Source: Myxococcales bacterium
Lineage (GTDB): Bacteria > Myxococcota > Myxococcia > Myxococcales > Myxococcaceae
DNA: 36,721 nt
Direction: 5' to 3'
NCBI GenBank assembly: GCA_020846875.1
Contig: JADLDB010000130.1
Coordinates: 1 to 36,721, forward strand
Made by a program: the position numbers and the translations under genes. The notes below the pieces were generated by a model. That model ran no database searches. It was not told the origin of the DNA and was given only the letters and a program-made list of their open reading frames with translations. This document shows, one piece after another, positions 2,325 to 10,329 of this stretch; position 1 is the stretch's first letter, and the number at the start of each line of letters is the position of its first letter.

Positions 2325-2936
2325 TCAGGGACTGCCGGAGTCGGCGGCGCTGGTACCTGCGTCCGGCTCCGCGTCCTCGGCGACCGGCGTCGGAGGCGGA
2401 GGGGGCGGCAGCGCTTCGACGAGGCCCTTCAGCTTCGTCAGGCCCTTCGAGAAGTTCTCGGCCAGCATCGACTCGATCATCCCGCGGAAGTAGCCGCCGA
2501 TGACCGGGGGCAGGGCGCCTTCGTCGATCCAGGTCACCTTCGTGCCGTCGCCCTCGCGCGTGTAGAGGAAGCGGCCCTGCGCGTTCACCTCCTCCGACTC
2601 GATCGCCTCGTCCACGGTGAGCCCCACGGAAGCATCGCTCTTCACCACCTCCATGCGGCCCTTGCCCATCACCGGGCCGCTCCACGCCCACCGTGCGCCG
2701 ACGCCGCGATCCGGCCCTTCCCAGGTCCACACCACCTTCGGATCCAGCTCCTTGTTCCACGCGGACCAGTCCACCCACCTGCGCAAGTCCTCGAGGAACG
2801 GGTGGATCTGCTCCGGCGGGGCCTTGATCAGAATCGACTGCTCCACGTGCCACCTGCGTGGGAGCAGCGCGCCGATGATCAGCGCGACGAGGATGAGGCC
2901 GACGAGGCCCAGCGCGACGCGTCCCAGGAGCTTCAT
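2325..2936 (-). CDS. Membrane-anchored SRPBCC (polyketide cyclase/START-like) protein
   Basis: The 203-residue protein starts at the ATG at 2936 with a good GAGGGG ribosome site. Residues 6-26 (VALGLVGLILVALIIGALLP) form one transmembrane segment. The rest resembles the SRPBCC/Polyketide_cyc2 fold: strand SILIKAPPEQIHPFLEDLRRW, WSAWN, a series of beta strands, and a long C-terminal helix (GYFRGMIESMLAENFSKGLTKLKGLVE). SRPBCC proteins bind hydrophobic ligands in a helix-grip cavity; the ligand here is unknown. The C-terminus ends in a run of prolines and an acidic tail. Transcription is divergent from the YceI-like gene, with 46 bp between starts. Confidence 0.82.
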   Translation of the reverse strand: MKLLGRVALGLVGLILVALIIGALLPRRWHVEQSILIKAPPEQIHPFLEDLRRWVDWSAWNKELDPKVVWTWEGPDRGVGARWAWSGPVMGKGRMEVVKSDASVGLTVDEAIESEEVNAQGRFLYTREGDGTKVTWIDEGALPPVIGGYFRGMIESMLAENFSKGLTKLKGLVEALPPPPPPTPVAEDAEPDAGTSAADSGSP

Positions 2937-2982
2937 GGCGGTTCCCCTCTGGTTTGCCGCCTGCTTATGCCAGAAGCGGCGC

Positions 2983-3489
2983 ATGGCCCACCTCGATCCC
3001 CAGAGCGCGGAAGTGCTGGTCTTCACCTTCAAGGACGGCTCCCTGCTCTCGGCCCTGGCGCACGACTTGAAGCTCAAGGTGACGAAGTTCGGCCTCGAGG
3101 TGGAGGCCGACTCGGTGAAGGCCGAGCTCGACGCCGCGTCACTGGAGCTCGTCACCGCGATGAAGGACGGGAAAGAGAACCCCGGGGCCCTGCCCGGCTT
3201 CGCGCCCGCGGAGATCCGCAAGAACACCGCCAACGACGTGCTGGAGGCGAAGAAGTTCCCCACCATCCGCTTCGAGACGACGCAGATCACCGACGCGCAG
3301 GTGAGGGGCCGGCTGACGCTGCACGGGCAGACGCGCGAGGTGAACGGCGAGCGCAGGGACGCGGGCGGGAAGAAGATCGCCGAGTTCCGATTCGATCAGC
3401 GCGCCTTCGGGATCAAGCCGTACTCCGCCATGCTGGGCGCGCTCAAGGTGAAGCCCGAGGTGGTGGTGCGGGTGGCCTTCAGCGCTTGA
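2983..3489 (+). CDS. YceI-family protein
   Basis: The 168-residue protein has the YceI lipocalin-like pattern: an early FTFKDG strand, LAHDLKL, the middle motif DVLEAKKFPTIRFETT, then VRGRLTLHGQTREV and a final strand (EVVVRVAFS). YceI proteins bind long isoprenoid or amphiphilic lipids. Most are periplasmic with a signal peptide; this one has none, so it may act in the cytoplasm. The start at 2983 follows AAGCGGCGC, a modest ribosome site. Its last 11 bp overlap the end of the convergent cyclic-nucleotide-binding gene. Confidence 0.85.
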   Translation: MAHLDPQSAEVLVFTFKDGSLLSALAHDLKLKVTKFGLEVEADSVKAELDAASLELVTAMKDGKENPGALPGFAPAEIRKNTANDVLEAKKFPTIRFETTQITDAQVRGRLTLHGQTREVNGERRDAGGKKIAEFRFDQRAFGIKPYSAMLGALKVKPEVVVRVAFSA

Positions 3490-3991
3490 TCGCCGGGCGG
3501 ATCAGCGTGTTCTCGATCTCGTCGTCGTCGGCGGCCAGATCCTGCAGCCTGGCGTTGGTGACCCGCAGGCGGCGGGACAGCTCACGGCAGAGGTTCTGCA
3601 GGATCATCACGTAGCCGGCGACGTCCTGCTGGTAGAGCGTGTAGAGATCCCGGTTGCCCAGCGAGTAGAGCAAGGCCGGCTTCTCCACCACCACCGTGGC
3701 CGAGCGCTTCTGGATGTCGATCAGCGTCATCTCGCCGAAGAACTCGCCCGGCCCCATGCGCACCATCTTGATCCGCCGGCCGTCGGGGAGCTCGCGGCAC
3801 ACCACCGCCTCGCCGTGGCGGACCAGGAACATCGCCCGCCCGGACTCGCCCTGCTTGCAGACCGGCTCCTCGGGGCCGACCTGGTGCACGCAGAGGAGGT
3901 CGATCACCCGGCGCAGCGTCGGCTCCTCCAGGCCCCCGAAGAGGGCGATGGTCGGCAGCCAGGCCACCAGATCGTTGACGTCTTTCGTCAC
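3479..3991 (-). CDS. Free-standing cyclic-nucleotide-binding domain protein
   Basis: The 170-residue protein is one cNMP-binding domain of the CAP/PKA-R type: GPEEPVCKQGESGRAMFLVRHGEAVV, then the phosphate-binding-cassette region PGEFFGEMTLIDIQKRSATVVVEKPALLY. After the domain come helices (ILQNLCRELSRRLRVTNARLQ) but no helix-turn-helix, so it is not a CRP-like transcription factor. Translation starts at GTG 3991, after an AGAGG site, 2 bp past the stop of the VWA gene, so it is the last gene of the moxR-VWA operon. It may sense a nucleotide and act on its operon partners; that is inference from position. Confidence 0.88.
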   Translation of the reverse strand: MTKDVNDLVAWLPTIALFGGLEEPTLRRVIDLLCVHQVGPEEPVCKQGESGRAMFLVRHGEAVVCRELPDGRRIKMVRMGPGEFFGEMTLIDIQKRSATVVVEKPALLYSLGNRDLYTLYQQDVAGYVMILQNLCRELSRRLRVTNARLQDLAADDDEIENTLIRPAIKR

Positions 3992-3993
3992 GG

Positions 3994-5166
3994 CTACCTC
4001 TGGCGCGTGAGCTGGGAGACGGCCTCGCCCAGCCCTTCCAGGGTCAGAGGGTACATCGGGTAGACCTTGCGGAGTACGTCGATCGTCGTCTGCCACCAGG
4101 CCGACGGGGGCTCGGGGTTCATCCACACCGACGCGGGGTAGTGCTCCCGCAGCTTCGCCATCCACATCAGCCCTTCCAGCCCCTCGTCGCCAGGCCAGCC
4201 GGAGCCGCTCATCAGCTCCCACGGCGCCATCAGCGCGTCGCCCACGATGATCAGCTTGTAGCGGCGATCGGTCTCGGTGAAGAGCTCGGACACCTTCATG
4301 GGATCCGCGAAGCGTGCGCTCTTGTACACGCGGCCGTAGACGCAGTTGTGGAAGTAGTAGGTGCGCAGCTCCTTGAAGTGGGTGGCCTTCTTCGCCGCGG
4401 TGAAGAGGCGCGACATCAGGTGGGAGTACGGATCCATCGAGCCGCCCACGTCCATCAAGAGGATGACGCGGGTGTTCGACTTGCGCGGCGGGCGGGTCAC
4501 CACCTCGAGCTCGCCCAAGTTCCGCGCCGTCTCGTCGATCGTCTTGTCGAGATCCAGCTCCTGCTCGGTGCCCTCGCGGGAGAAGGCCCGCAGCTTGCGC
4601 AGCGCCATGCCCAACTGGCGCACGTCCAGCACCAGGTCGTCCCGGTAGTCCTTGAAGTGCCGCTCCCCGGCCACGCGGATCGCGCTGCGCCCTCCGCCCG
4701 AGCCGCCCACGCGGATCCCCGGCCGCGCCGCCCGCCCGGAGTGCCCGAAGGGGGACGTGCCCCCGGTGCCCACCCACTTGTTGCCGCCGTCGTGGCGCTC
4801 CTTTTGCTCGCGCAGGCGCTCCTCGAAGAGGCGCTCGAGCTCCTGCGGATCGAGCTGCTCGAGCAGCGCCCGCTCCGCGTCGGTCAGCTCCGGCAGGCGG
4901 CGCCGCGCGTCCTTGAGCCAGTCGAGGAGCTGCTGGTGCAGCTCGACCGCCTGGGACTCGAGGCCCTGGAACACCTTCGCGAAGGCCTGATCGAACGCGT
5001 CGAGGTGCTTCTCGTCGTGCACCAGGAGCGCGCGGGAGACGAAGTAGAAGCCTTCCAGCGAGCTCTCGTGCAGCCCCTCCTTGAGCGCCGCGGCCAGGGC
5101 CACCGCCTCCTGGGCGCCCACGGGCACCTTGCGCGCGCGCAGCTCGTAGAGGAAGGGAATGAACAT
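3994..5166 (-). CDS. VWA-domain protein of the CoxE-like family, MoxR partner
   Basis: The 390-residue protein has an N-terminal helical region, a charged glycine-rich linker (about residues 125-165) and a C-terminal VWA domain. The metal-site motif is LLMDVGGSM, where the first serine of DxSxS is replaced by glycine. Later VWA elements are YYFHNCVYGRVY and KLIIVGDALMAPWEL. Such proteins pair with MoxR AAA+ ATPases in chaperone or cofactor-insertion systems. The gene lies 3 bp downstream of the moxR stop (5170) and just before the cNMP-binding gene. The substrate protein of this pair is not indicated by the neighbours. Confidence 0.87.
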   Translation of the reverse strand: MFIPFLYELRARKVPVGAQEAVALAAALKEGLHESSLEGFYFVSRALLVHDEKHLDAFDQAFAKVFQGLESQAVELHQQLLDWLKDARRRLPELTDAERALLEQLDPQELERLFEERLREQKERHDGGNKWVGTGGTSPFGHSGRAARPGIRVGGSGGGRSAIRVAGERHFKDYRDDLVLDVRQLGMALRKLRAFSREGTEQELDLDKTIDETARNLGELEVVTRPPRKSNTRVILLMDVGGSMDPYSHLMSRLFTAAKKATHFKELRTYYFHNCVYGRVYKSARFADPMKVSELFTETDRRYKLIIVGDALMAPWELMSGSGWPGDEGLEGLMWMAKLREHYPASVWMNPEPPSAWWQTTIDVLRKVYPMYPLTLEGLGEAVSQLTRQR

Positions 5167-5169
5167 GCC

Positions 5170-5997
5170 TCACGCCCGGGTGCGCTTGCCGCCCGCGAAG
5201 GCCTCCTGCACGGCGAGCAAGTCCTGCTCCCGCTTGAGCAGCGCGCCCAGGAAGGGCAGGTGCTCGTCCAGCTTCACCGTGGTCATCCCCGAGGCCTTGA
5301 GCGCGGCCAGCCAGTCCACCAGCTCGCTGGTGGAGGGCCGCTTGCGCAGGCGGGTCAGGTTGCGCAGCTCGTAGAAGACCTCCAGCGCTTGATCGGCGAG
5401 GCGCTCGGAGAGATCCGGGTGGTGGACGGTGACGATCCGCTTCATCAGCTCCTGATCAGGGAACTCGATGAAGTGGAAGACGCAGCGGCGGAGGAAGGCG
5501 TCGGGCAGATCCTTCTCGTTGTTGGAGGTGATGATCACCACCGGCCGCTCTTTGGCGACGATCTCCTTCTCCGTCTCGATGATCCGGAAGCGCATCCGAT
5601 CGAGCTCGTGGAGCAGATCGTTGGGGAACTCCAGGTCGGCCTTGTCGATCTCGTCGATGAGCAGCACCCGGCGCTCCGGCGCGGCGAAGGCCTCCCCCAG
5701 CGGCCCCAGGCGGAGGTACTTGTTGATGTCGCGCACGTCGTGATCGTTGAAGCGGGAGTCGTGCAGGCGCTGGACGGCGTCGTACACGTACAGGCCTTCC
5801 ATGGCCTTGCTGGTGCTCTTCACGTTCCAGGTGAGCAGCTTCATCCCCAGGCCCTGGGCGATCGCCTCGGCCAGCAGCGTCTTGCCGGTGCCCGGCTCGC
5901 CCTTCACCAGCAGCGGGCGCTGGAGCACCAGGGCGCAGTCGACGGCGGAGCGCAGAGACTCGTTGGTGAGGTAGGTGTCGGTGCCCTTGAAACGCAT
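5170..5997 (-). CDS. MoxR-family AAA+ ATPase
   Basis: The 275-residue protein carries a Walker A motif GEPGTGKT (residues 33-40), Walker B VLLIDEIDKAD, sensor 1 in VVIITSNNEKDLPDAFLRRC (with an arginine-finger-like RRC) and a C-terminal lid. The overall pattern is MoxR/AAA_5. It would use ATP to remodel a target together with the VWA protein encoded immediately downstream. The gene is first in a three-gene minus-strand operon. The start codon ATG at 5997 faces the divergent membrane-protein gene, with 59 bp between starts holding the promoters. Confidence 0.93.
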   Translation of the reverse strand: MRFKGTDTYLTNESLRSAVDCALVLQRPLLVKGEPGTGKTLLAEAIAQGLGMKLLTWNVKSTSKAMEGLYVYDAVQRLHDSRFNDHDVRDINKYLRLGPLGEAFAAPERRVLLIDEIDKADLEFPNDLLHELDRMRFRIIETEKEIVAKERPVVIITSNNEKDLPDAFLRRCVFHFIEFPDQELMKRIVTVHHPDLSERLADQALEVFYELRNLTRLRKRPSTSELVDWLAALKASGMTTVKLDEHLPFLGALLKREQDLLAVQEAFAGGKRTRA

Positions 5998-6056
5998 GGG
6001 CGCAGGTTAACCCCGAGTGCGGTAGCGTGCCTTCCCGATTCGGGGAGGGACAAAGC

Positions 6057-6833
6057 GTGCGCAAGTGGAGGCTGATGATCACCACCCTGCCGTTCGTGGC
6101 CGGGGTGACGGTGCTCAAGCTGGTGCTGGACAAGGTGGTGGGCTTCACCGGCGTGGTGGAATTCAGCGACGTGGGCATCGTGCTGACCGGCGGCGTCTTC
6201 CTGCTCGGCTTCATGCTGGCGGGCACGATGGCCGACTACAAGGAAGCCGAGAAGATCCCCGGCGAGGTGGCCACCACCCTGGAGACGATCGAGGAGATCT
6301 TCGTCCTCGCGGCCACGGGGCGCCCCGCGCTGAAGCTGCCCGAGCTGCGCAGGCAGGTGCTGGGGCTGGTGGACGACATCAAGGCGTGGGTGCTGAAGAA
6401 GAAGGCCACCGCCGAGATGTTCGCGGCGATGACGCGGATGACGGGCACCATCCGTCAGCTCGAGGGGAGCGGCGCCGGCCCGTACGCCTCGCGCGCGGTG
6501 CCCCAGGTGCTGATGCTGCGCAAGAACCTGCAGCGGATCGACGTCATCTCGAAGACCGGGTTTCTGCCGCCCGCCTACGCGCTGCTGGAGGTGCTGCTGG
6601 CGATGATCCTCGCGCTCTTGTTGGTCGCGAAGTTCAAGAGCTTGATCGCCGAGGTGATCCTGGTGCCCTTCGTCACCCTGGTGAACGTCTACATGCTGCG
6701 GCTGATCAAGGACGTGGACGATCCCTTCGACTACCAGCCCGACGGCAGCCACAAGGGCGGCGCGGAGGTGGAGTTCTACCCGCTGGACGACTACCGGGAG
6801 CGCCTGGCGAAGCGGCTCGACGAGGGCGGGTGA
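6057..6833 (+). CDS. Unrecognised multi-pass membrane protein
   Basis: The 258-residue protein has four probable membrane segments: two near the N-terminus (about residues 5-22 and 34-54) and two after the middle (about 180-198 and 204-222). Between them is a cytosol-sized, mostly helical region of about 120 residues (KLPELRRQVLGLVDDIKAW and so on). This 2 + soluble + 2 topology is reminiscent of bestrophin-like DUF4239 proteins, but I see no diagnostic motif. GTG at 6057 is chosen because GGGAGGGA ends 6 bp before it; an ATG ten codons earlier overlaps that site. The C-terminus is charged. Confidence 0.75.
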   Translation: MRKWRLMITTLPFVAGVTVLKLVLDKVVGFTGVVEFSDVGIVLTGGVFLLGFMLAGTMADYKEAEKIPGEVATTLETIEEIFVLAATGRPALKLPELRRQVLGLVDDIKAWVLKKKATAEMFAAMTRMTGTIRQLEGSGAGPYASRAVPQVLMLRKNLQRIDVISKTGFLPPAYALLEVLLAMILALLLVAKFKSLIAEVILVPFVTLVNVYMLRLIKDVDDPFDYQPDGSHKGGAEVEFYPLDDYRERLAKRLDEGG

Positions 6834-6834
6834 C

Positions 6835-7545
6835 TCACTCCTCCAGCTCGAACCGGGTGGCCTCGCGCCGCGCGTGGGCGTCGAGGTAGGCGGCGAAGCC
6901 GGCGCGGGAGTCCAGTTGGAAGGCGGGGAGGCGCGCCAGGACTTCGGGCGCGAAGTGGTACTGCTCCACCACCAGGCTGGCGCGGACTGCGCCCGGGGCG
7001 CCCGAGAAGGCGCACACCTCGTGCGAGAGGCCGCCGTGGAAGTGGACGAGCTGGTTGTCCTGCGGCCTCACGGATCCGACGGGTAGCCTGCCCAGGTAGA
7101 GCTTGAGCTGCCCGCCGCGCGCCTTCGGCACGTCGAGGTAGAGGACGGACACGCACTCGGGGATCGCCTCGGGGGCCTCGGCCGGCTTGCGCAGGGTCGC
7201 GTCCACGTGGCGTCCGACGGTGCCGCCCTCGGACACGAGCAGCACGTTCAAGTACCAGGCGTTGGGGGTGCGGCGGTGTGTGCGCCTCCAGAAGGGCGCC
7301 ACCGCGACCGCGCCGGGCGCGCCGAGGATCGCCGGCAGGTAGGCGGCGAGGGGCGCAAAGCGCTGCGTCACCTTGGCGATCCCCTCGGCCCTGAAGATCA
7401 CCGCGAAGCCGCGGCTGGACTGAAACGGGCCGGTGAGGGTGCTGCGGCCGACCAGCGGGGAGGTGAGCAGCGCGTCGCGCAGCGCGTCGAAGTCGGCGCG
7501 GGGCAGGGCGTCTCGCTTCACCCGGTAGGGCCACACGCAGGCCAT
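6835..7545 (-). CDS. 2-oxoglutarate/Fe(II)-dependent oxygenase-like protein
   Basis: Counting from the ATG at 7545 (236 residues), the protein has H113 and D115 in GRHVDATL, H175 in HGGLSHEV, and R188 in VRASLVVEQY. This is the HxD...H...R set that holds iron and 2-oxoglutarate in the double-stranded beta-helix oxygenases. Strands SVLYLDVPKARGGQLKLYLG between them match the prolyl-hydroxylase-like group. The start is uncertain: the frame stays open to 7653, overlapping the divergent PilZ gene, and 7545 leaves room for promoters. The substrate is unknown. Confidence 0.75.
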   Translation of the reverse strand: MACVWPYRVKRDALPRADFDALRDALLTSPLVGRSTLTGPFQSSRGFAVIFRAEGIAKVTQRFAPLAAYLPAILGAPGAVAVAPFWRRTHRRTPNAWYLNVLLVSEGGTVGRHVDATLRKPAEAPEAIPECVSVLYLDVPKARGGQLKLYLGRLPVGSVRPQDNQLVHFHGGLSHEVCAFSGAPGAVRASLVVEQYHFAPEVLARLPAFQLDSRAGFAAYLDAHARREATRFELEE

Positions 7546-7609: not shown

Positions 7610-8716
7610 GTGGTGATTGAGCTCCAGCACCGCGCGCCCCGCGTCCGCTTCAAGCACCCGGTGCGCGTCGTGCCGTTGGACGGCGCGCCGCGGATCTACC
7701 GCACGCTGACGGCCAACCTGTCGCGCAAGGGCATGTTCGTCCGCATGCCGGAGCCGCTGCCGAAGGGGACGCGGGTGGCGCTGTCGCTGGAGGCTGGCGG
7801 CCAGGCGCTGCCCTTCGCCGAGGCGGAGATCGCCTGGTGCCGCACCTCCCAGTCGCAATGGCCGGGGCGGTACGCCGGCTTCGGGGTGCGCTTCACCTCC
7901 TTCCTGAACCCGCGCGCGCCGGAGCTGGTCGAGTACCTGGTGAGGAACCTGGATCGCGGGCGCCCGCTCAGGGTCGCGCCGGCGACGTCCCTGCGGAAGC
8001 GCTGGCTCCTCCAGGCGCTGCTGGGCCTGGTCGGGTTGGGGATCACCGCCCTTCTCTCCCTCTCCCTCAGCCTGGGAGTGGGTGGGGAAGAGGAGAAGTC
8101 TCCCGCGGTGGCAGCTCCCGTCGCGGCGGAGGGCGTGGGCGTCGAGGGCCCCGTCGAGGCGCCGGCGGCAGCCATTGAGCCGCCATCGCCTGCGCCTCTC
8201 GTCGCGGCCGTGCCCGCTGGAGCGCCTGAGGCTCCCCTCGCGCGGGAGGCCCCCACGGGGCCGGTCTCTGCGAGTACTCCTCCGCCCGGCGCCGAGGCGA
8301 ATGGTCCCGTGGAGTCGCTGGCCGCCGCAGCGAAGAGCGCGCCCGCACGTGCTCCCCACGCCGCCCCGCGCGCGAGCGCTCCGCCTTCGCCGCCCAACCG
8401 CCTGGCGCTCCCCTCGGGGGCGCTCGAGGCCTTCAGGTGGTCGGGCCAGGCCACCACCATTCACCTCGCGCTCGAGCTTGCGCCCGGCGCGAGCCTCTCC
8501 AGGGCCTTCTTCATGGCCTCACCGCCGCGCCTCGTCCTCGACCTCGACGGCAAGGCCCCGAAGAAGAGCTTCACGCTGGGGCCGGCCGCCGCGTGGCTGG
8601 AGCAGGTCCGCATCGGTCCGCACGGCCCCTCGACGCGGGTGGTGCTGGATCTGAAGCGCGCGCCCGAGGGCGTGTCCCAGTCGGCGGACGGAGTGACGCT
8701 CTCGTTCTCCCGCTGA
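7610..8716 (+). CDS. PilZ - transmembrane - AMIN domain protein
   Basis: The 368-residue protein joins three parts. Residues 8-115 are a PilZ domain with the second c-di-GMP motif as NLSRKG (N/DxSxxG); the first motif is weak, with R11 and K15 in place of a clean RxxxR. Residues about 134-154 form one membrane segment. Residues 160-270 are an alanine/proline-rich linker, and 272-368 look like an AMIN domain, a periplasmic domain that binds peptidoglycan or secretin partners. The layout would place a c-di-GMP sensor inside and an envelope binder outside. Start is GTG at 7610 or the adjacent GTG at 7613. Confidence 0.82.
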   Translation: MVIELQHRAPRVRFKHPVRVVPLDGAPRIYRTLTANLSRKGMFVRMPEPLPKGTRVALSLEAGGQALPFAEAEIAWCRTSQSQWPGRYAGFGVRFTSFLNPRAPELVEYLVRNLDRGRPLRVAPATSLRKRWLLQALLGLVGLGITALLSLSLSLGVGGEEEKSPAVAAPVAAEGVGVEGPVEAPAAAIEPPSPAPLVAAVPAGAPEAPLAREAPTGPVSASTPPPGAEANGPVESLAAAAKSAPARAPHAAPRASAPPSPPNRLALPSGALEAFRWSGQATTIHLALELAPGASLSRAFFMASPPRLVLDLDGKAPKKSFTLGPAAAWLEQVRIGPHGPSTRVVLDLKRAPEGVSQSADGVTLSFSR

Positions 8717-8829
8717 GCTGCAGCGCCCAACACTTCTTCACCCACGACTCACGGCGGCCTGACACGTCTCGGGTTTCCTCGTCCCACGCGAGCTGGACTC
8801 CACCGGCCGCGGCTGACGGAGGAACACAC

Positions 8830-9258
8830 ATGAAGACGCTGATGCTGACGGGAGCGCTGGGACTGACGCTGGCGGTGGGCGCCACGGGCTGTGGGCGCGG
8901 CGCGGATCGCCTCGAGCGCGCCGAGAAGCTGGTGGACTGGAAGGTGGCCGACGCGATGGATGATCTCGACGCTACGCCGCGGCAGGCCGAGCGCGCGCAG
9001 GGGCTCGCGAAGGGCCTGGTGGTGGAAGCCAGGCCGCTGGTGAAGCAGGCCCTCGAGGCGCGGGACGTGCTGATCGCCGAGTGGAAGACGAACAAGCCCG
9101 ACTCCGCGAAGGTGCACGCGGTGGTGGACAGCCAGCTCGACGCCGCCCGCGGCTTCGTGCACCGGGTGGCCGACGCCGCCATCGAGCTCCACGGCCTCCT
9201 CACGCCCGAGCAACGCGACGAGGTGACGGCGCGCTTCGAGAAGCACGCCAGGCACTGA
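8830..9258 (+). CDS. Spy/CpxP-like periplasmic lipoprotein
   Basis: The 142-residue protein begins with a lipoprotein signal ending VGATGC (lipobox cysteine at about residue 21). The mature part is almost entirely helical and ends with LHGLLTPEQRDEVTARFEKH, the LTxxQ motif of Spy/CpxP periplasmic chaperones and metal-responsive proteins. The ribosome site ACGGAGGAA precedes the ATG at 8830. It lies 113 bp after the PilZ-AMIN gene, so it may have its own promoter. A role in envelope stress is inferred from the family. Confidence 0.82.
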   Translation: MKTLMLTGALGLTLAVGATGCGRGADRLERAEKLVDWKVADAMDDLDATPRQAERAQGLAKGLVVEARPLVKQALEARDVLIAEWKTNKPDSAKVHAVVDSQLDAARGFVHRVADAAIELHGLLTPEQRDEVTARFEKHARH

Positions 9259-9304
9259 GCCGTGACGGTTGGTGAAACGGGGCGCGGCCGGTAGAAGCCG
9301 CCGC

Positions 9305-10072
9305 GTGGACGTCTCCGCCGCGGCGATCATCACGCTCAGCTTCGTCGCCTTCGCCGCGGGCCTGGTGGACGCGATCGCCGGTGGGGGAGGGCTCCTCACC
9401 GTCCCCGCGCTGCTCACCGCCGGCCTGCCACCGCACGTCGTCTTCGGCACCAACAAAGGCCAGTCCGTCTTCGGCAGCTTCTCTGCGCTGCTGCGCTTCT
9501 GGAGGGCCGGCCTCGTCGATCGCCCGCGTGCGAAGTTGTTGTTCCCCCTGGGCGTGGTCGGCTCCTTCGGCGGCGCCGCGCTGCTGTTGCTGGTGAAGCC
9601 CGACGTCCTCAAGCCGGTGGTGCTGGTGCTGCTGGTGGCGGCCGGGGCGGTGGTGGCCTTCGTGCGGCCTCCCGAGGGCGCGGACGAGCGCCCGGTGCCG
9701 AAGAAGGCGGTGCTGGAGGGCGCGGTGATCGCGCTGGTGATCGGCGCCTACGACGGCTTCTTCGGCCCCGGCACCGGCACCTTCCTGATCATCGCCTTCG
9801 TCACCGCGCTGCACTTCTCCCTCCAGCAGGCCTCGGCCAACGCCAAGGTGGTGAACTTCGCCTCCAACCTGGCCGCGGTGATCATCTTCTCCGCGCGGGG
9901 GCTGGTGCTGTGGAAGGTGGCGCTGCCGATGGCGGCCGGACAGTTCCTCGGGGGCACGGTGGGCGCCCACCTGGCGGTGAAGGGCGGCGATCGGGTGGTG
10001 CGGCGCGTGGTGCTCCTGGTGGTGCTGGCGCTCGTCGTCCGCCTTGGTTACGACGTGTGGACGGCTTCCTGA
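9305..10072 (+). CDS. TauE/SafE (YfcA-like) membrane permease
   Basis: This protein of 255 residues has about eight hydrophobic segments. It carries the family motifs FAAGLVDAIAGGGGLLTVPALL near the N-terminus and GAYDGFFGPGTGTFLIIAF in the middle, the repeated glycine-rich turns of TauE/SafE transporters. These export sulfite, sulfoacetate or related organosulfur anions across the inner membrane, though for many YfcA members the substrate is unknown. GTG at 9305 is favoured by family length; TTG 9269 or GTG 9272 would add about 12 basic residues. The selenoprotein gene follows 26 bp downstream, so the two are probably cotranscribed. Confidence 0.9.
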   Translation: MDVSAAAIITLSFVAFAAGLVDAIAGGGGLLTVPALLTAGLPPHVVFGTNKGQSVFGSFSALLRFWRAGLVDRPRAKLLFPLGVVGSFGGAALLLLVKPDVLKPVVLVLLVAAGAVVAFVRPPEGADERPVPKKAVLEGAVIALVIGAYDGFFGPGTGTFLIIAFVTALHFSLQQASANAKVVNFASNLAAVIIFSARGLVLWKVALPMAAGQFLGGTVGAHLAVKGGDRVVRRVVLLVVLALVVRLGYDVWTAS

Positions 10073-10098
10073 AAGGGGCCGGCTGGGAGCGACGCACC

Positions 10099-10329
10099 AT
10101 GCCGAGAGTCACCATCACCTACTGCGGGGCGTGAGGGTACCTCCCCCGGGCCGCCCGTGCGGCGGCCGCGCTGAAGGAGGAGCTCGAGCTGGACGCCGAG
10201 CTGATCAAGGGGTCGGGCGGGATCTTCGAGGTCGCGGTCGACGGCCTGGTGGTCGCCGCCAAGAAGCTGGGGCAATTCCCCACCGAGGAGGACGTGGTGG
10301 ACGCGGTCGCGAAGGCCACGACCGGCTAG
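10099..10329 (+). CDS. SelW/Rdx-family selenoprotein (in-frame TGA = selenocysteine)
   Basis: The gene is read through TGA at 10132-10134 as selenocysteine (U). The 76-residue protein starts MPRVTITYCGAUGY, so C9 and U12 form the CxxU redox motif of the SelW/SelT/SelH (Rdx) family, and CGAUGY is the typical SelW active site. After the TGA the frame runs 64 more codons to TAG, with family features: a long helix (RAARAAAALKEELEL), GSGGIFEVAVDGLVV, KKLGQFPTEEDVVDAV. GGGAG at 10085-10089 precedes the ATG by 9 bp. A conventional gene finder would stop at codon 12 and miss the gene. It is a small thioredoxin-like protein, probably a thiol/selenol redox partner. The neighbours are the TauE/SafE permease upstream and an esterase 12 bp downstream. 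Confidence 0.88.
10132..10180 (+). promoter_or_regulatory. Candidate bacterial SECIS hairpin after the TGA codon
   Basis: Just after the TGA (10132-10134) the RNA can fold into a hairpin. The upper stem is GGCCGCC (10149-10155) with GGCGGCC (10161-10167), closed by the loop CGTGC (10156-10160), 21 nt past the TGA. A lower stem pairs CCTCC (10140-10144) with GGAGG (10176-10180), with unpaired bases between. Bacterial SECIS elements lie within the coding region immediately 3' of UGA, with a G/U-bearing apical loop that SelB contacts; position and loop fit. Pairing was done by eye. Confidence 0.6.

Follow-up and report, generated by a model that had tools for sequence, protein, structure and literature searches.

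A predicted SelW-like selenoprotein gene with an in-frame TGA and a candidate SECIS hairpin in a Myxococcaceae genome

We analyzed a 36,721-nt stretch of DNA from a Myxococcales bacterium of the family Myxococcaceae (assembly GCA_020846875.1, contig JADLDB010000130.1, positions 1 to 36,721 of the forward strand), hereafter the window. It contains a short coding frame that crosses a TGA and lies between a TauE/SafE permease gene and an HSL-type hydrolase gene (Abhydrolase_3), as a first-pass annotation had placed it. The following features were recognized:

9269..10072, + strand: TauE/SafE permease gene, ending 26 nt 5′ of the SelW start (profile; upstream of selW in at least 14 relatives)
10085..10089, + strand: GGGAG, a possible ribosome binding site 9 nt 5′ of the ATG (suggested by sequence)
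10099..10329, + strand: SelW-like selenoprotein gene of the Rdx family, encoding 76 residues with active site CGAU-GY (frame, profiles, conservation, dN/dS, predicted fold)
10132..10134, + strand: in-frame TGA, read as selenocysteine (U12) (TGA column in 105 of 107 homologues, TGC in the other two)
10149..10167, + strand: candidate bacterial SECIS hairpin with a stem of 7 bp and the loop CGTGC, which lies 21 nt past the TGA (folding, cross-species comparison, rules of PMC13188914)
10342..11400, + strand: alpha/beta hydrolase gene (HSL-type, Abhydrolase_3), starting 12 nt past the SelW stop (downstream of selW in at least 9 relatives)

The SelW-like frame runs from the ATG at 10099 through CCGAGAGTCACCATCACCTACTGCGGGGCG, the TGA and GGGTAC, and is then open up to the TAG at 10327-10329. 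The string TAC TGC GGG GCG TGA GGG TAC and the 64 stop-free codons beyond the TGA, both described in the first-pass annotation, were recovered in this frame. With TGA translated as selenocysteine (Sec, U), the product has 76 residues with one U; its N-terminal part is MPRVTITYCGA-U-GYLPRAARAAAALKEEL... and the whole reads MPRVTITYCGAUGYLPRAARAAAALKEELELDAELIKGSGGIFEVAVDGLVVAAKKLGQFPTEEDVVDAVAKATTG, so that the TGA occupies the Sec position of a CxxU motif. The order TauE-selW-hydrolase was kept in part of the family, and the neighbor counts of 14 and 9 are lower bounds, given that the loci compared are short and that contig ends cut some of them. Upstream of the TauE gene, an ORF at 8437-9258 weakly matched the Metal_resist / LTXXQ families.

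Membership in the SelW/Rdx family, which had been proposed from the active-site motif, was borne out by profiles, solved relatives, and the predicted fold alike. The read-through product scored 49.6 bits against Pfam Rdx (PF10262; cut-off 22.6; residues 3-71) and 47.9 bits against TIGR02174 CXXU_selWTH (cut-off 34.2), and the Rdx match spanned the TGA in a six-frame search of the genome. Since these curated Pfam and NCBIfam cut-offs were passed, with Rdx matched across the TGA and the TGA itself present in 86 genomes, the frame is, judged from sequence, not a product of chance. Residues C9, C/U12, G13, and Y14 were invariant in the alignment. AlphaFold2, run on an alignment with 19 relatives and with the TGA position entered as Cys, gave a model with pLDDT 93.5 and the order beta-alpha-beta-beta-beta-alpha, in which the motif C9-G-A-U12 lies at the end of strand 1 (strand 4-9). 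All 23 PDB matches of this predicted model at E <= 0.001 were SelW-related, MIEN1 included, while thioredoxins ranked after them at E above 0.001. The solved relatives found by sequence were MIEN1/C17orf37, several bacterial SelW-related proteins, and mouse SelW.

The assembly that holds the window (7.06 Mb, estimated 100% complete) also encodes the machinery for Sec, as the first-pass annotation had presumed, with selA, selB, selC, and selD all present. The tRNA-Sec scored 68.6 bits (gathering score 47) and was called tRNA-SeC with anticodon TCA by ARAGORN; selA scored 574 bits, selB 301 bits with its neighbors in frame, and selD 373 bits without an internal stop, its active-site motif CAGCAAK being the Cys form. 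Another in-frame TGA stands at a classical Sec site (...SCNRTU-HAPS) in the gene for the alpha subunit of formate dehydrogenase (FdhA) and provides independent support for UGA being read as Sec in this organism. Since the N-terminal domain of FdhA stands apart, its profile score of 639 bits falls slightly below the cut-off of 666 bits. This FdhA appears to be split (L092, G000:C94:50500-61000, about 2427-7418), with its pieces in swapped order: the molybdopterin part with the TGA, a NuoE/NuoF-like fusion, and an ORF that closes with the N-terminal Fe-S domain of FdhA (CAYCGVGC, profile positions 1-49).

Just past the TGA of the SelW-like gene, the RNA can form the hairpin GGCCGCC-CGUGC-GGCGGCC (stem 10149-10155/10161-10167, 5-nt loop 10156-10160), the short-loop structure already remarked on 21 nt after the TGA. 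Bacterial SECIS elements are described as having an upper stem of 4-16 bp, a loop of 3-9 nt with G at its first or second position, and a distance of 16-37 nt from the UGA (PMC13188914), and the candidate, with 7 bp, the 5-nt loop CGUGC, and 21 nt, agrees with every one of these rules. Folded alone, a 59-nt stretch had no unusual stability (z -0.75), so that the case for a SECIS rests on comparison between species. Because the stem sits in an Ala/Arg-rich coding stretch, where part of the pairing follows from the protein sequence, synonymous codons were resampled with local codon usage; mean hairpin energy over 46 distinct sequences was -12.9 kcal/mol versus -9.5 (sd 0.33) in the resampled sets, none of 200 rounds reaching the observed value. 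In a few relatives (L024, L026, and L027) the hairpin was no better than resampled sequence. The stem pair at offsets 20-32 from the TGA joins the third positions of the sixth and tenth codons past it, and across 77 distinct sequences it was C-G in 58, U-A in 10, U-G in 8, and G-C in 1, with no mismatch; most U-A pairs came from a few related genera, so independent events are fewer than these counts. At the loop arginine codon the same 77 sequences had CGU (61), CGG (14), AGG (1), and AGU, encoding Ser (1), and never CGC, though it is the commonest arginine codon nearby (44%). Such changes in the hairpin are silent in the protein and point to selection on the RNA. A distant family of Sec-form SelW (f3; L074, L076, and L077) has a SECIS-like hairpin at a nearly equal distance, in which the loop is GGUC and the stem CCCGA/UCGGG, its sequence changed and its place kept; the loop resembles that of E. 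coli fdhF.

Homologues were found in 87 of the 145 genomes of the order, and 86 of these have the TGA. When homologues were read directly from sequence, 105 of 107 had TGA and two had TGC, a set that includes the same species from two collections and holds 80 distinct TGA sequences. The two TGC codons, which align with the TGA column, belong to the sole TGA-less genome (G038, active site CAPCGY) and to one member of a tandem pair in G087 (L073, G087:C44, 1360-777), where a Sec copy (CNSU-GY) is accompanied about 160 nt on by a Cys copy (CVTC-NY); this pair is possibly a duplication with a Sec-to-Cys change. In G038 no selA match was present and no tRNA-Sec exceeded the cut-off (best 45.4 bits). 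A TAA flagged within its homologue proved to be the ordinary stop of that gene. Across the order, 84 of the 86 Sec-form genomes had selA above the cut-off, versus 44 of the 59 others (Fisher p 2.7e-5, uncorrected for kinship), and the two Sec-form genomes without a selA above it are assemblies that are 80% and 87% complete. One assembly with both the Sec form and selA (G003) yielded no tRNA-Sec over the cut-off. Named matches came from Myxococcaceae and Archangiaceae, with more distant ones in MAGs labeled Deltaproteobacteria, Alicyclobacillus, and Chloroflexi; a myxobacterial-type Sec SelW with 59% identity was also in a MAG labeled Klebsiella pneumoniae (L059, CAMAWH010000005.1), a label that is probably wrong.

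These comparisons bear on whether the TGA encodes Sec at all. Translation as another residue, by near-cognate read-through to Cys or Trp, is compatible with the sequence taken alone but becomes very improbable beside the four sel genes and the SECIS-like hairpin, and beside the fact that the only homologue-bearing genome of the order without the TGA encodes Cys there and lacks selA. Even less credit is due to a dead gene, in which mutation or sequencing error turned TGC or TGT into TGA. The TGA is one base from TGC and Cys forms do exist, yet it is common to 86 genomes, the genome has the Sec machinery, and the frame after the TGA is under purifying selection, its substitutions being mainly synonymous (dN/dS of 0.06-0.59 in comparisons with ten relatives, and a median of 0.41 over 1204 pairs). 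The frame, moreover, ended 63-72 codons past the TGA in every homologue read, and in close relatives the TGA and the coding sequence after it are both present, contrary to a plain stop followed by unrelated DNA. Similarly implausible is a reading in which the TGA ends a short peptide and a second, unrelated gene begins downstream: UGA is generally a stop in this organism, but residues 3 to 71 of the read-through product align as a single Rdx domain, and the YC..U-GY residues on either side of the TGA are conserved jointly and make up one active-site motif. Conservation thus led us to reject the pseudogene, sequencing-error, and short-peptide readings.

We therefore favor, with a probability of roughly 96%, a functional SelW-like selenoprotein gene whose UGA specifies selenocysteine 12, the reading that the first-pass annotation had advanced and that the sel genes, the Rdx match, the hairpin, and the relatives now support. 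By analogy with the family, SelA, SelD, and tRNA-Sec would make Sec-tRNA, and SelB, on the hairpin just past the UGA, would bring it to the ribosome for insertion at codon 12. The product would be a small protein of thioredoxin-like fold whose first strand ends at the C-x-x-U active site, where C9 and U12 most likely form a putative reversible selenenylsulfide in thiol redox reactions. SelW may be functionally linked to the neighboring permease and hydrolase. The stronger proposal, that in myxobacteria a lineage-wide Sec-form SelW works with the TauE/SafE permease and the HSL-type hydrolase as a dedicated redox unit dependent on selenium, seems unlikely. Sec-form SelW is the norm in Myxococcaceae rather than an isolated case, and the relative that lacks selA and carries Cys offers a clean natural contrast. 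Annotation that takes every TGA as a stop can truncate or miss the gene.

Among solved structures, the Cys-type SelW-related proteins 2fa8, 2oka, 2obk, and 3dex resemble the predicted fold (TM 0.83-0.88 over ~76 columns) and have 30-38% identity to the product, and they are 103-107 residues long; in 2fa8 and 3dex the alignments place Cys where the product has Sec. Mammalian selenoprotein W (2npb) and MIEN1/C17orf37 (2ljk) share the family and the position of the redox motif, with a weaker fold match to the predicted model. Eukaryotic Sec insertion uses a SECIS in the 3′UTR, unlike that of bacteria. SelW-like selenoproteins of bacteria have been on record since about 2005, and the occurrence described here adds Myxococcaceae to them; we found no paper on a SelW-like protein in this family or on myxobacterial selenoproteins in the open-licence literature, a search that leaves absence unproven. 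The earlier sets comprise 48 SelW-like selenoprotein genes in Sargasso Sea data (PMC1088965) and representatives in Geobacter sulfurreducens, Desulfotalea, Desulfotomaculum, Alkaliphilus, and Symbiobacterium, with Anaeromyxobacter dehalogenans listed without SelW (PMC1794560). As in those sets (PMC1088965, PMC1794560), the gene described here combines CxxU in a SelW/Rdx protein, a candidate SECIS just past the UGA, and a host with the Sec trait. Unlike them, it is spread across Myxococcaceae in CGAU, CTAU, and CNSU variants of about 75-84 residues, with TauE and hydrolase neighbors in a subset.
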